Assembly: GCA_003058525.1 (NCBI GenBank) | Contig: QBVD01000015.1 | Location: forward strand, 1-41,713 | From: a gamma proteobacterium symbiont of Ctena orbiculata | GTDB lineage: Bacteria; Pseudomonadota; Gammaproteobacteria; Chromatiales; Chromatiaceae | Reading direction: 5' to 3' | Length of the DNA stretch: 41,713 bases | Shown here: one piece after another, positions 34,624-40,266 of the stretch | Layout: every line of letters begins with the position of its first letter | Numbering within the stretch: the stretch's first letter is position 1 | Position numbers and translations under genes: made by a program | Notes under the pieces: generated by a model | Database searches by the model: none | The model's input: only the letters and a program-made list of their open reading frames with translations | What the model was told of the DNA's origin: nothing

Positions 34624-35778
34624 ATGAAATTAACTGTGTGGAGTGGCCTGCTGGCATTGACGGCGCTTTTTTCCGGTTGCGCCCAGTCGGTGACTGAGCA
34701 GGCTGAGCTGCCTGACGAGATGCTGCAGGGACTGTCGGTCGCGACTTTTGCCGGTGGCTGCTTCTGGTGCATCGAGGCGGGATTTGAAGAGTTGCCAGGC
34801 GTCAAAGAGGCGGTTTCTGGCTATAGCGGTGGTAGGGATAAAAACCCGACCTACCGGAAAGTTGCAAGAGGGCGCACCGGGCATACCGAAGCTGTGCAGG
34901 TCTATTACGATCCTGAAGTAATCAGTTATTCGGGCTTGATTCAGGGACTATGGAGGATGATGGATCCCACCGATTCCCGAGGCCAATTCTATGATCGTGG
35001 CAGACAGTACCGCCCGGCCATCTTTTATCACAATCAAAAACAGAGAATGATTGCGGAACGTTTACGCGACGAATTGGCCGCCTCGGGACGCTACAAGAAA
35101 CCGATTACGATTGAGATTGTTCCGTTCAAATCGTTCTACAAGGCGGAAAAGAAACACCAGGATTATTACAGGAAAAATCCGATCCGATACAATTTCTATA
35201 CCTTCAACTCAGGCCGCTATCAGTTCGTTGATGAGGTCTGGGGTGAGGAGCGTTTTGTGGATTACACCCAATATCGCGACGAACCAGCCGAGGAAACCGC
35301 ACCGGCCGGGAAGAGTACCCGCTATAGCAAACCGACTGAAGCAATTATCAGGAGTATGCTTACCCCGCTGCAGTACAGCGTGACTCAGGAGAACGATACA
35401 GAACAGCCGTTCAATAACGCATACTGGGATGAGAAGCGGGAAGGGATCTACGTCGACATAGTGACTGGTGAGCCTCTGTTCTCGTCCACCGACAAGTACA
35501 GGTCAGGGACCGGTTGGCCCAGTTTCACCAAACCGATTCAGCCGGAAGTGGTGACGGAGAACGAGGAGCGTTCGCTGTTTGGTGTGCGTACCGAGATCCG
35601 CAGCCGTATCGGCGACTCCCATCTCGGCCATTTATTTGATGATGGTCCGGCACCGACGGGTCTGCGATATTGCATTAACTCGGCAGCATTGCGGTTTGTG
35701 CCCAGGGCGCAGATGGAATCGCAAGGCTACTCAGAATACCAGAAGCTGTTTTTTGAAATGATGGCTGAGAGTTCTTAA
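34624..35778 (+). CDS. msrAB: Bifunctional methionine sulfoxide reductase MsrAB, lipoprotein
   Basis: The 384-aa protein has a lipoprotein signal (LTALFSGC, Cys at about 19), an MsrA domain (about 38-200) with the catalytic GGCFWC motif and GYSGG, and an MsrB domain (about 240-375) with GTGWPSF, HLGHLF and the catalytic Cys in [12 protein letters not shown]. It reduces both epimers of methionine sulfoxide in proteins. The MsrB zinc cysteines are absent ([10 protein letters not shown]), as in the zinc-free form. The signal implies a periplasmic, membrane-anchored enzyme, so it would repair exported proteins. The next gene encodes an exported protein with Met at every third position, a conspicuous candidate substrate. 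Confidence 0.95.
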
Positions 35779-36063: not shown

Positions 36064-36672
36064 TTATTGGCCGGACATACCTCCCATGCCGCTCATGCCA
36101 CCCATACCGGACATGCCGCTCATGCCACCCATACCGGACATGCCGCTCATGCCACCCATACCGGACATGCCGCTCATGCCACCCATACCGGACATTCCGC
36201 TCATACCGGACATTCCAACAGGATAAAGATGGACGCCTTGAGGTGTAACCTTATAGGTACCATACATCCCCGACATACCACTCATGCCGGACATGCCTCC
36301 CATACCGGACATGCCTCCCATACCGGACATGCCGCTCATACCGCCCATGCCGGACATCCCGCTCATGCCACCCATACCGGACATGCCGCTCATGCCACCC
36401 ATACCGGACATGCCACCCATGCCGGACATGCCGCTCATGCCACCCATACCGGACATGCCGCTCATGCCACCCATACCGGACATCCCGCTCATGCCACCCA
36501 TACCGGACATGCCGCTCATGCCACCCATACCGGACATCCCGCTCATACCGCCCATGCCGCTCATACCGTCCATGCCGGACATCCCGCTCATACCTGACTG
36601 TTTATCCGCAAACGCAACTGATGCACTTGAGAGGGCCAATGAGAGAGTGATGATTGAGGCTAGTTTCTTCAT
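36064..36672 (-). CDS. Exported Gly-Met-Ser repeat protein
   Basis: The 202-aa product has a signal peptide (MKKLASIITLSLALSSASVA, cut after AFA) and then almost only the triplets GMS, GMG and a few GMD, arranged mostly as the nine-residue unit GMSGMSGMG. Glycine occupies every third position and methionine the next, so roughly fifty Met residues are present. One unrelated block of about 17 residues (MYGTYKVTPQGVHLYPV) interrupts the array about two-thirds along. Ribosome site GGAG precedes the ATG. Met-x-x-Met spacing could bind Cu(I), or the methionines could scavenge oxidants with adjacent MsrAB as recycler; both are inferences. No known family is recognised. Confidence 0.85.
   Translation of the reverse strand: MKKLASIITLSLALSSASVAFADKQSGMSGMSGMDGMSGMGGMSGMSGMGGMSGMSGMGGMSGMSGMGGMSGMSGMGGMSGMSGMGGMSGMGGMSGMSGMGGMSGMSGMGGMSGMSGMGGMSGMGGMSGMSGMSGMYGTYKVTPQGVHLYPVGMSGMSGMSGMGGMSGMSGMGGMSGMSGMGGMSGMSGMGGMSGMGGMSGQ
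36073..36595. repeat. 27-bp coding minisatellite
   Basis: Tandem copies of a 27-bp unit (plus strand CCGCTCATGCCACCCATACC plus GGACAT and variants with 9- or 18-bp registers) form two blocks, about 36073-36213 and 36267-36595, separated by unique sequence. Near-identity between units implies recent expansion by slippage, and copy number probably varies between strains. Confidence 0.85.
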
Positions 36673-37576: not shown

Positions 37577-38011
37577 ATGAAATCCCTATCATTTGGTTGG
37601 ATTAAAACGGCATTGCCACTGGTTGCACTTATTGCTGCACCCATGTGGGTTCATGCTGAAACATTCTCTGGTACGATAAATGGACATGAGTGCGCACACA
37701 ACGGCGTCTCCTGTCCAGTTGAGAGACTTGATCCGCATATCGCGCTCGAGTCCGATTTTGTCTTGATGGTAGGTGAGGGTGATTATCTCTTCATGCCTAA
37801 CCTGTCAAGAGATATCAAAGTCAGATACGTTCTCGATAACGTTCAGGTAAAGGGTGAAAAACATCCGAGGTTCAATTCCATCAAGGTTTCTGAATTTAGC
37901 GTGAAGAAGGGTGGTAAGTATGTCACGGTGTGGACGCAGAAACAGGCGGATTTCGAATATGAAGCGCTCTACAGAGATGGTTTGGCCTTTCCTGGACAGA
38001 AAGTCAATTGA
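37577..38011 (+). CDS. Exported small protein, unknown
   Basis: The 144-aa product has a signal peptide (about 1-27, ending VHAETF) and a small beta-rich domain with two cysteines near the start (GHECAHNGVSCP), likely a disulfide. Mature sequence includes FVLMVGEGDYLFMPNLSRD and KVSEFSVKKGGKYVTVWTQKQ. A strong ribosome site precedes the ATG. No family is recognised. The TlpA-like thioredoxin gene follows in the same direction after 82 nt, which may maintain or read its disulfide; that link is a guess from position. Confidence 0.75.
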   Translation: MKSLSFGWIKTALPLVALIAAPMWVHAETFSGTINGHECAHNGVSCPVERLDPHIALESDFVLMVGEGDYLFMPNLSRDIKVRYVLDNVQVKGEKHPRFNSIKVSEFSVKKGGKYVTVWTQKQADFEYEALYRDGLAFPGQKVN

Positions 38012-38093: not shown

Positions 38094-38636
38094 ATGAAAA
38101 GTTCAATACTGATTGCATTCTATCTCATATTCGCCTCTACAGCCTCCTGGTCTGCGGGATTGGGCATACGCACCTACTCGGATCCAAAATCTGCGTCTGA
38201 CTTTTCCCTGCCGGATTTAACTGGGCGGATACACGAAAAGTCCGATTACAGGGATCGGGCTTATATCATCAGTTTTTGGGCGACCTGGTGTGTGCCCTGC
38301 ATCAAAGAGCTGCCGGATCTGCAACGAGCTGCTGAGATCCTTGATGAAGAGAATATCACCGTTCTTACAGTCAACAGCGGAGAAACTCGTGAGGTCATCG
38401 ATCAGTTTTTAGTGCAACGTTCCGTTACACTCCCCGTTCTCCTGGACCAGGATTCCAACATGCTGCGGCAATGGCGGGTGCTGGCTCTCCCTACCTCATA
38501 TATCGTCAATGCGAAGGGACAGATTGTGGCACGTGTGGTGGGAGGCATTGACTGGGATGAGCTGTCGATACTGGCGCATGTACGTGCCTTGGCGGCAGCC
38601 AATCAAAACGATGATTCACATCGTGAATCAAACTGA
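38094..38636 (+). CDS. TlpA/ResA-like thioredoxin-fold protein
   Basis: The 180-aa product has a signal peptide (about 1-21) and a thioredoxin fold with active site WCVPC in FWATWCVPCIKELPDLQ, cis-Pro in ALPTSYIVN and GGIDWDEL near the end. Such periplasmic reductants serve cytochrome c maturation or disulfide reduction. It is the last gene of a possible pair with the exported protein upstream. Confidence 0.9.
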   Translation: MKSSILIAFYLIFASTASWSAGLGIRTYSDPKSASDFSLPDLTGRIHEKSDYRDRAYIISFWATWCVPCIKELPDLQRAAEILDEENITVLTVNSGETREVIDQFLVQRSVTLPVLLDQDSNMLRQWRVLALPTSYIVNAKGQIVARVVGGIDWDELSILAHVRALAAANQNDDSHRESN

Positions 38637-38708: not shown

Positions 38709-39167
38709 TTATTGCTTGTCTGGGAAGGCGGGCGCTGCCTGGTATTTGTAGTCACCCTGGTCCGTCATGTAGCCGCGCATATCAATGATGATATTGGTCT
38801 TGTGACGTCTACCCTCGCGGGCACGAACCGCGTCGAAAAAGGTTTTACGCATTTTCCCGCCGCCTTCCGTATCCTGGTCGATGCTGAAGACGATATGCAG
38901 GGGTTCACCCGGTTTCCCCAGCGGGTGGGCGAGGGCATGCACGCGTTCGTTGTGAATGGTGTAAACCAGGATCTCCATCTTGTCATGCAGGTATGGAATA
39001 CGAATGGAGAAGCCGGAACCCAAAGCGATATAGGCAATCAACAGGAAAAAGAGGGTGCCCAGAATATAACCACCATAACGGCGACCTGCAGAGATGATTA
39101 CCAGTACGCCCCAAATTGCGATGAGAAAAAGAAACAGGTACTTGGCAGTCAGTGGATCGTTTAACAT
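38709..39167 (-). CDS. Third gene of ExbBD-like operon: membrane protein, unknown
   Basis: The 152-aa product has two membrane helices (about 10-27 and 33-50) followed by a soluble domain of about 95 residues with EILVYTIHNERVHALAHP and TNIIIDMRGYMTDQGDYKYQ. No family is recognised. It begins 4 nt after the ExbD-like gene, so it belongs to the same transcript and probably the same complex. Confidence 0.75.
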   Translation of the reverse strand: MLNDPLTAKYLFLFLIAIWGVLVIISAGRRYGGYILGTLFFLLIAYIALGSGFSIRIPYLHDKMEILVYTIHNERVHALAHPLGKPGEPLHIVFSIDQDTEGGGKMRKTFFDAVRAREGRRHKTNIIIDMRGYMTDQGDYKYQAAPAFPDKQ

Positions 39168-39171
39168 ATGA

Positions 39172-39783
39172 TTATTTTTCCAGTCTTCTCAATGTGCCGT
39201 GGAAGATTTCGAACGGCTCAAAGGATTTACTCTCCTCTATCAGTTGCCGGTCCCGCATCTCAAATGAGATGACGCCTTTCTCCTGACCGGGATATTCCAA
39301 AGTCATCCGCTCTTCGTAGACGACATGCATAAGACGTCCTTCCCTATATCGAATGGAAATATTGACATCCACCGGGGTATTGCCCATACCGTTGTCGCTG
39401 TAGTAAACAATGGAAAAACGGTAGCGTCCGTCCGGGATGCCGCGAGAGAAGATGAACTCGTAGTTGAGTCCCGAGAAGTCCACATCGCGACCCAGGTCGT
39501 CACGTACCAGGTTGAATATCTCTCCGTAGGGTGAGGCATAGCCGACGTTTTCATTTTTTTTGGGGGCGTTGGCCCAGAGGTCGATATCGGCGGGGCTGTC
39601 AGGCGCCCAGGTGATCTCGGCAATCATGTCACTGGCGGCCTTCTCTATCTCGGTCCGGGTGCTCTCCTGCTGGACCTTGATAAGGGGGATCAGCAACACA
39701 ACCAGAGTGAGCATCAGCAGTGCCAGCAGAATCAGCAGGTCACGAAAAACAATGGACATGCTGTCTTCGCGTGGACGGGTCAT
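39172..39783 (-). CDS. ExbD/TolR-like protein with unusual periplasmic domain
   Basis: The 203-aa product has one N-terminal membrane helix (about 12-34) that begins FRDLLILLALLML; Asp15 aligns in position with the proton-carrying Asp of ExbD, TolR and MotB. The periplasmic part is not an ExbD domain: it contains DIDLWANAP, GYASPYGEIFNLVRDDLG, GLNYEFIFSRGIPDGRYRF and a beta-rich end. No OmpA-like peptidoglycan-binding motif is seen. Start 39783 follows a GAGGAAGAG site and lies 3 nt after the ExbB-like gene, so the two are translationally linked. Confidence 0.78.
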   Translation of the reverse strand: MTRPREDSMSIVFRDLLILLALLMLTLVVLLIPLIKVQQESTRTEIEKAASDMIAEITWAPDSPADIDLWANAPKKNENVGYASPYGEIFNLVRDDLGRDVDFSGLNYEFIFSRGIPDGRYRFSIVYYSDNGMGNTPVDVNISIRYREGRLMHVVYEERMTLEYPGQEKGVISFEMRDRQLIEESKSFEPFEIFHGTLRRLEK

Positions 39784-39786
39784 GAT

Positions 39787-40266
39787 TTACTCTTCCTCAG
39801 ATACTGGCTCTTCCGATCTGGCGGGGCCGTAGAGCATATCCCGGATTTTGTTCATGGCTTCCATGATCATGGCCGCAGACAGGCCGATCATGGTAGTGTC
39901 GATGGCGAAGGAGACAGACTTCAGAAACTGGCCGATCTCAGCAGAGAGGGTGGCGGCATCCTGCAGGTCTCTGACATCGATACCGGCCAGGGCTATGGAA
40001 AAGCCCAGTACCGTACCGAGCATACCCAGACCGGTTGTCAACCAGGACCAGAAGTGCGCATCGGTCTTTCGGCCGCTAAAGGCGAAGGCCTCCACCAGCA
40101 AGACAATGGACAGGATAATGCCAAAAAACCAGAGAGTTAAGGTGTTACCGAGAATACGGTCCAGATAGCCCAGGCTGTAAAGGGTGAAGATCAGAGCCCC
40201 GAACGTGAGGAGAATGGCAAGCTCGAACAGTCTGGTCCAGGGTGCTTCAGGTTGTTGTGCGTCCAT
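39787..40266 (-). CDS. MotA/TolQ/ExbB-like proton channel subunit
   Basis: The 159-aa product has four helices: about 12-34, 42-65, 72-95 and 114-140. The last two carry the channel motifs TTGLGMLGTVLGF (ExbB: GLLGTVWG) and FAIDTTMIGLSAAMIMEAMN (ExbB: TTAIGL). It is smaller than most ExbB or TolQ proteins and lacks a large cytoplasmic insertion. First gene of a three-gene unit with the ExbD-like and an unknown membrane protein. It probably uses the proton gradient to move the periplasmic domain of its partner. Confidence 0.85.
   Translation of the reverse strand: MDAQQPEAPWTRLFELAILLTFGALIFTLYSLGYLDRILGNTLTLWFFGIILSIVLLVEAFAFSGRKTDAHFWSWLTTGLGMLGTVLGFSIALAGIDVRDLQDAATLSAEIGQFLKSVSFAIDTTMIGLSAAMIMEAMNKIRDMLYGPARSEEPVSEEE

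Follow-up and report, generated by a model that had tools for sequence, protein, structure and literature searches.

Two exported methionine (Met)-rich proteins have been described as hypochlorite sinks: MrpX of Azospira suillum, encoded with yedYZ (MsrPQ) and sigF/nrsF, and BcrX of Brucella, encoded with BcrQP (PMC8315932, PMC4623255; here and below, what we take from cited papers covers the available parts of those papers). We analysed a stretch of 41,713 nucleotides (contig QBVD01000015.1 of assembly GCA_003058525.1, hereafter the window) from Candidatus Thiodiazotropha, a clam symbiont, which encodes a secreted protein composed mostly of Gly-Met-x triplets (Gly, glycine), and we compared this protein, its relatives and their neighbouring genes with the described systems. 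Our analysis points to a probable role for these exported, largely disordered Met polymers as rechargeable oxidant sinks that are re-reduced by S-oxide reductases. Judged from the sequences, the pairing that spans classes is that of the array with a molybdenum (Mo) operon of the dimethyl sulfoxide (DMSO) reductase type.

The likeness to MrpX and BcrX lies in an exported Met-rich chain that is encoded with a system for the reduction of methionine sulfoxide (MetO), whereas the components differ from those of MrpX. The repeat of MrpX is of the MXKDX type, while the proteins studied here carry Gly-Met-x arrays with beta-hairpin spacers, and no MXKDX-type model is among the Pfam or NCBIfam hits of the window. 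The reductase there is MsrP, a member of the sulfite oxidase family, while here it is an enzyme of the DMSO reductase family encoded beside a pentaheme cytochrome. The regulators there are an extracytoplasmic function (ECF) sigma pair, while here the genes near the operon include those of a CxxCH-containing histidine kinase and of a regulator of the sigma-54 type. Neither MsrPQ nor an ECF sigma/anti-sigma pair is among the classified neighbours in the window and at locus L004, MsrPQ not having been searched for genome-wide. The principle of the sink is thus known from MrpX with MsrPQ, but the present polymer and its Mo reductase partner differ, and they are not members of the MrpX type.

Other described systems resemble single parts of these loci. 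DmsABC, YnfEFGH and DorA share with them the Mo subunit, the DmsB-like iron-sulfur (FeS) subunit and the TorD-like chaperone, but here a pentaheme cytochrome belongs to the operon, one motif of the enzyme reads Cys-Cys-His-Cys, and the enzyme scores under the DmsA/YnfE cut-off. Exported MsrAB proteins of the PilB type combine MsrA and MsrB domains with export, as is generally known, and the window also has a TlpA-like thioredoxin nearby; here, however, the thioredoxin is a separate gene, and in four of the loci with the window's type of array only the MsrA part was matched. In Bacillus cereus, the Met residues of exported proteins form an antioxidant pool recycled by MsrAB, but, as far as the available text goes, this occurs without a dedicated polymer, and MsrAB is described there as cytoplasmic (PMC5526929). 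A dmsAB near a soxY, which may or may not belong to the present operon, is mentioned in lucinid symbionts (PMC11237559). Among the matches listed, which cover open-licence papers, there is no description of a Gly-Met protein beside a DMSO reductase.

The Gly-Met arrays and their conservation

An earlier note, made from the letters of the window alone, had described a secreted protein of Gly-Met-Ser/Gly triplets, and this description holds: the open reading frame (ORF) begins, by eye, with a signal-peptide-like N-terminus, and Gly-Met-x accounts for 49 of the 49 triplets that have Gly-Met on both flanks. From residue 23 onward (180 amino acids), the protein contains 72 Gly, 53 Met, 36 Ser, 2 Pro, 1 His and no Cys, with the spacing M-x-x-M running through the whole array. 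What the note overlooked in calling the protein nearly all triplets is the conserved module YGTYKVTPQGVHLYPVG, which interrupts the array. The structure model, with a mean predicted local distance difference test (pLDDT) score of 45, leaves both arrays below 50 (Table 1), and outside the signal region this spacer is the sole confidently modelled stretch, with strands at residues 139-143 and 146-150 and a mean pLDDT of 82 over residues 141-150. It is kept across the seven aligned rows of the window's type and aligns with GYFKITPQGQIFFYP of a second type.

The chain is accordingly modelled as largely disordered, low pLDDT being a prediction and not a proof. An extended, exposed Gly-Met chain is plausible by analogy, because the Gly/Met-rich tail of GroEL is reported to adopt polyproline II helices (PMC12571646); that tail is a short chaperonin tail, and we claim no homology with it. 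The arrays have the Gly at each third residue that is typical of collagen, and the protein matches the Pfam Collagen model PF01391 (36.6 bits vs a cut-off of 27.2). This match mirrors the period and Gly content of the array, and a collagen triple helix was rejected since Pro-rich X/Y positions are absent (2 Pro in 180 residues).

At the DNA level, the array of the window is a tandem repeat with a period of 27, 17.9 copies, 75% matches and 7% indels. Over 54 triplets, a count that takes in the spacer triplets left out of the flanked counts, the Gly codons are GGC (27), GGT (20), GGG (5) and GGA (2), so that the four-fold site is mixed, while the Met codon is retained in 53 of the 54, the single exception being a Thr of the spacer. 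The flanked triplets of 66 named loci number 2707 in all, and 2666 of them start with Gly-Met. Since the silent site of Gly varies while the Met codon stays, the protein, and Met in particular, is under selection in the array. Array length, in turn, changes: among eight orthologues of the window's type, seven have from 40 to 63 Gly-Met-x triplets and the eighth (G003) contains Ns, which supports the earlier idea that a 27-bp minisatellite would allow the capacity to change. Contigs frequently end inside the array, for example at L047, L050, L054, L056, L058 and L064, among others. Lengths read from short-read contigs are uncertain, and given these contig ends the gene is likely to be cut or missed in many annotations.

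The array belongs to a wider family. Candidatus Thiodiazotropha is placed in Sedimenticolaceae, and its members live as symbionts of lucinid clams (PMC11171427). An array match at E <= 0.001 is present in 32 of 56 genomes, including the window's own (G000, 4.74 Mb), where a different contig encodes a further and longer copy (361 amino acids counted from a TTG start). By eye, we distinguish three types in Thiodiazotropha: type A, that of the window, with the spacer GTYKVTPQGVHLYP; type B, with the spacers GYFKITPQGQIFFYP and QWVWxPSG and a C-terminal WR; and type C, with the spacer GTYRVTPQG and an aromatic tail at its end. Types A and B look like paralogues because their spacers align. The genus is represented by 21 of the 56 genomes, of which 8 carry type A, and the window gene is a lineage-specific paralogue within the wider Gly-Met family.

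Reductases encoded beside the arrays

Types B and C adjoin an operon of the DMSO reductase type. At L004, a run of genes on the same strand encodes a small protein of about 94 residues (s94), the array protein, a multiheme cytochrome c, the Mo enzyme, a DmsB-like FeS protein, a TorD-like chaperone, a class I cytochrome c and a ferredoxin-like protein, with the histidine kinase and the sigma-54-type regulator on the opposite strand nearby, and similar gene orders recur in relatives. By homology, the Mo enzyme is assigned to the clade of DMSO, trimethylamine N-oxide (TMAO) and biotin-sulfoxide reductases (DmsA/DorA/BisC). It matches the structure 1eu1 (2.8e-76) and the DmsA/YnfE model TIGR02166 (E 2.3e-189, 631 bits, under the curated cut-off of 777.7), on which three distant members score 611, 637 and 627 bits; in the four members scanned, models of DMSO and selenate reductases are the best scorers. 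Its signal RRSFLK is of the twin-arginine type (PF10518, 21.2 bits vs a cut-off of 22.7). No DmsC-like membrane anchor was noticed among the ORFs read at L004, and the genome itself was not searched for DmsC.

Scanning named genomes with the Mo-enzyme alignment gave 472 relatives, and our statements on named loci rest on the best 80. Ser215 and Tyr179, which align with Ser147 and Tyr114 of the Rhodobacter sphaeroides DMSO reductase, are invariant (80/80); we take the former to be the Mo ligand and the latter to be the residue tied to S-oxide preference. All 80 loci encode the cytochrome c, with five CxxCH motifs in 77, and the FeS subunit, while 78 encode the chaperone. The hosts, according to the titles and to class placements that we assume partly from general knowledge, are Alpha- (Hyphomicrobiales, Thermopetrobacter), Beta- (Tepidiphilus, Thiobacillus, Rhodocyclaceae) and Gammaproteobacteria. 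As separate observations on the enzyme, the motif Cys67-x3-Cys71-x3-His75 ... Cys115 is invariant in the 80 loci, at a site where from DmsA we would presume four Cys; and G002, G007, G008 and G010 have a second copy, about 77% identical to the query, which in G002, G007 and G010 adjoins its own type C array gene (L037, L045, L052).

Array and Mo enzyme occur together. The Mo enzyme is encoded in 27 of the 56 genomes (31 genes at E <= 1e-150), every one of which also gives an array match. In G035, G037, G041, G046 and G049 the array match stands alone (E 5.8e-18 to 2.9e-4), and G014, a 2.6-Mb member of the genus, lacks both. Requiring at least four consecutive Gly-Met-x triplets upstream of the Mo gene, we found the array at 70 of the 80 named loci, and the spaced GMSGQQ repeats of L216 bring the loci with repeats to 71; Met-rich ORFs that a looser rule picked at L172 and L208 are chance ORFs and do not enter these counts. 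Just the ends of arrays are present at L172, L164 and L175 (5, 11 and 9 triplets, respectively), and at L160, L166, L167 and L185 the contig starts inside the cytochrome gene or at most 160 bases from it. Little beyond the cytochrome gene would usually fit between the array and the Mo gene; at L221 the array itself stands between the cytochrome gene and the Mo gene.

Arrays are spread over the tree of the Mo enzyme. In a class sample of 369 genomes, 16 have the Mo enzyme (E <= 1e-200), 23 the array match (E <= 1e-8) and 16 both, a co-occurrence with p = 6e-23 under an assumption of independent genomes that does not hold. The seven genomes with the array alone are G046, G077, G207, G271, G306, G390 and G399, five of them at just 29-34% identity. 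Array triplets are present in the 1.5-kb flanks of 10 of 13 class loci and of 3 of 4 new loci from a phylum sample, in which 5 of 398 genomes have the Mo enzyme.

Type A has a different partner. As the earlier note stated, its convergent neighbour in the window is an exported MsrAB: both domains are recognised, a lipoprotein-type signal is present (Table 1), and 285 bases separate the two genes. The protein carries the motifs GCFWC and RYCIN, which we take to be the MsrA motif and the catalytic Cys motif of MsrB. The pairing does recur, with MsrA/MsrAB convergent beside type A in six of the eight genomes (window, G009, G005, G015, G019 and G020). It was found beside type A alone, with an array in the flanks of 6 of the 30 MsrA-type loci retrieved from the 56 genomes by the MsrAB search, all six of type A, and four of these matches reach no farther than query residues 231 to 266, leaving little or no MsrB part. 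MsrAB as the sole or the commonest partner was therefore rejected, the wider survey finding the Mo enzyme instead. In the idea of a Met sink regenerated by MsrAB, the exported sink with a MetO reductase survives as the best reading, and MsrAB as the main partner does not. A further observation near type A concerns G001 and G003, in which an exported-looking peptide of 100 amino acids with 23-24% Met lies about 2 kb away (L034:4429-4731, plus strand, and, in G003, L038:7005-7307, minus strand); by eye it resembles MXKDX repeats, and for the G003 copy neither Pfam nor NCBIfam gave a family match.

A proposed rechargeable sink and its alternatives

In the proposed sink, oxidants such as peroxide or hypohalous acid would turn the dense Met side chains into MetO, and the partner reductases would convert the MetO of the polymer back to Met; a disordered, exposed chain would be a good target for both. 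We suggest these steps because the partner families act on sulfoxides and because the chain appears disordered and exposed. Type A would be served by the exported MsrA/MsrAB, with the TlpA-like thioredoxin as the probable donor. Type B would be served by the Mo enzyme with its twin-arginine-type signal, to which the pentaheme cytochrome c probably passes electrons, so that respiration would recharge the polymer. Favouring this proposal, paralogues of one polymer adjoin two unrelated enzyme families of the same type of chemistry, namely MsrA/MsrAB beside type A and an enzyme of the DmsA/BisC clade beside types B and C. The DorA of R. sphaeroides reduces protein-bound MetO, including that of unfolded beta-casein, at a level similar to that of known Msr enzymes, and in all likelihood acts on the S form only, as MsrA does (PMC7402097). 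Repair of MetO in casein is also described for BisA of Campylobacter concisus (PMC10653797).

Several points weigh against the sink. BisC and TorZ/MtsZ are stated not to reduce MetO in proteins (PMC7402097), homology to DMSO reductases does not fix the substrate, and adjacency and co-occurrence are no proof of it. L184, L190, L191, L208 and L213 extend more than 2 kb upstream of the Mo gene and have no array on the locus; these five fall within one group of seven, and L191 retains a remnant of 79 amino acids containing MGGMSG. No array is present in the 1.5-kb flanks of L232, L233 and L235 in the class sample and of L268 in the phylum sample. Eight of the nine genomes without repeats on the Mo locus show an array-like match in another part of the assembly (E <= 1e-4), and some of these matches will be the same gene across a contig break. 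In G782, a contig stretch with s94 and array (L281) ends in sequence that, by eye, also begins L208, which is probably array-linked across the contig end. The ninth genome, G783 (L213), has no array match at E <= 1e-4, and therefore, together with the array-less loci, indicates that the operon can exist without an array. As for type A, the array lies away from MsrAB in G001 and G003 (about 33 kb apart in the latter), and the two genes are convergent, so that a shared transcript is not implied. All eight type A genomes come from one genus, for which reason a single event may account for all six pairs, and their evidence is moderate.

We put forward a farther-reaching proposal tentatively and with considerable doubt: that the physiological substrate of the whole DMSO-reductase-type clade is not DMSO but the secreted Met polymer encoded alongside. 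The polymer would then act as a rechargeable redox store that is oxidised outside and returned to its reduced form by respiratory electrons, by which the cell would both detoxify oxidants and respire a protein-borne S-oxide. In Thiodiazotropha, the MsrAB-linked paralogue would have been re-wired to a reductase that works with thiols.

The strongest alternative, which we nevertheless consider unlikely, is that the Mo operon respires a small S-oxide such as DMSO and that the Gly-Met protein is a scaffold, matrix or protective coat for the exported enzyme and cytochrome rather than the substrate. The Mo enzyme, FeS subunit and chaperone do match DMSO/TMAO reductase families, the conserved aromatic spacers could bind partners, and array length varies; a scaffold, however, leaves unexplained both the second paralogue beside MsrA/MsrAB and the specific retention of Met.

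A buffer for Cu(I) or another soft metal is an improbable function. Thioether ligands suit Cu(I), and the spacing M-x-x-M extends all along the array, but no copper transporter, oxidase or chaperone is among the classified neighbours in the window and at L004, the two loci that were classified, and the mature window protein has one His and no Cys, some distant array proteins having Cys in their spacers.

Still less probable is a structural role in sulfur globules or in a different layer of the envelope. Many hosts are, by their names, sulfur oxidisers, but array and operon are also found in Hyphomicrobiales, Filomicrobium and Rhodocyclaceae, for which periplasmic globules are, to our knowledge, not commonly reported. 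Export and, in SgpD, a somewhat repetitive sequence are traits of globule proteins that favour a resemblance, but SgpA-C are described as extremely hydrophobic and SgpD as having regularly spaced Pro (PMC10386293). A globule protein is thus disfavoured by host range and by the Sgp features, which are considered here as described.

A drifting minisatellite without a selected protein function fits the 27-base tandem repeat and its length changes, but it was rejected on the codon pattern, with its variable silent Gly sites and constant Met, and the signal peptide and the conservation of array and place across classes leave it practically no credence.

Further features of the loci and significance of the system

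The features of the window and of L004 are compiled in Table 1. The TlpA/ResA-like thioredoxin of the window, a plausible thiol donor of MsrAB, also gives a hit to the MsrA/MsrB model NF010625 over model positions 54-170, with a score far below the cut-off. Its gene and that of the protein of 144 amino acids, which had no match in Pfam or NCBIfam, are on the fetched stretches of G009, G015 and G020 too; in G015 and G020 they lie about 6 kb from the pair of type A and MsrA/MsrAB, which is intact although the order is rearranged. A three-gene cluster on the minus strand of the window (38709-40266) gave one weak match to MotA/TolQ/ExbB, below the cut-off, and no Pfam match for the other two genes; it is also found about 4 kb from MsrAB in G003 (L271).

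The exported-looking s94 is encoded upstream of the array gene in 31 of the 33 named loci with more than 4 kb upstream. Its alignment comprises L004 and 31 of the 38 further copies (L149, L150, L158, L195, L196, L205 and L219 were omitted); no family matched it, its structure model is poor (pLDDT 59), and Foldseek gave no match at E <= 10. The histidine kinase is present in 36 named loci, many others being too short, and all 36 copies have a CxxCH within the first 300 residues of the frame, which suggests a heme-based sensor; a match to PF21563 is below its cut-off.

Table 1. Positions of features in the window and, where prefixed, at locus L004
Feature	Position	Strand	Evidence or remarks
Exported Gly-Met-x repeat protein (type A), 202 aa	36064..36672	-	ORF with ATG start, composition, triplet counts, homologues in relatives
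Signal peptide, residues 1-22, MKKLASIITLSLALSSASVAFA	36607..36672	-	by eye; residues 2-26 modelled as helix
Gly-Met array 1, residues 27-137	36262..36594	-	sequence, triplet counts; residues 23-135 at pLDDT < 50
Conserved spacer YGTYKVTPQGVHLYPVG, residues 137-153, predicted beta-hairpin	36214..36264	-	model and alignment
Gly-Met array 2, residues 153-202	36067..36216	-	sequence, triplet counts; residues 155-199 at pLDDT < 50
Exported bifunctional MsrAB, lipoprotein-type signal LFSGC (by eye), convergent	34624..35778	+	PF01625 7.6e-61, PF01641 5.3e-46, motifs
Exported-looking 144-aa protein	37577..38011	+	beside TlpA-like gene in G009, G015, G020 too
Exported TlpA/ResA-like thioredoxin, CVPC	38094..38636	+	PF00578 3e-22
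Mo enzyme	L004:5854-8418	-	DMSO reductase-type homology
s94	L004:10517-10801	-	motifs YPIAG..P..RP.GAP... and FL.NQGNWYTPF.RPGM.GPYD.R.WH; also in 38 named loci
Histidine kinase beside operon	L004:12180-14039	+	CxxCH motif in N-terminal part

The tight coupling of this clade of Mo enzymes to a Met polymer predicts a substrate other than the one its models suggest, and with it a function open to testing. If the proposed sink is real, a second, independently built combination of Met sink and Mo reductase would stand beside MrpX/MsrPQ. The system is spread over Alpha-, Beta- and Gammaproteobacteria, with many animal symbionts among its hosts. The array would be a simple, tunable antioxidant polymer, and the gene pairs are ready for in vitro assays.
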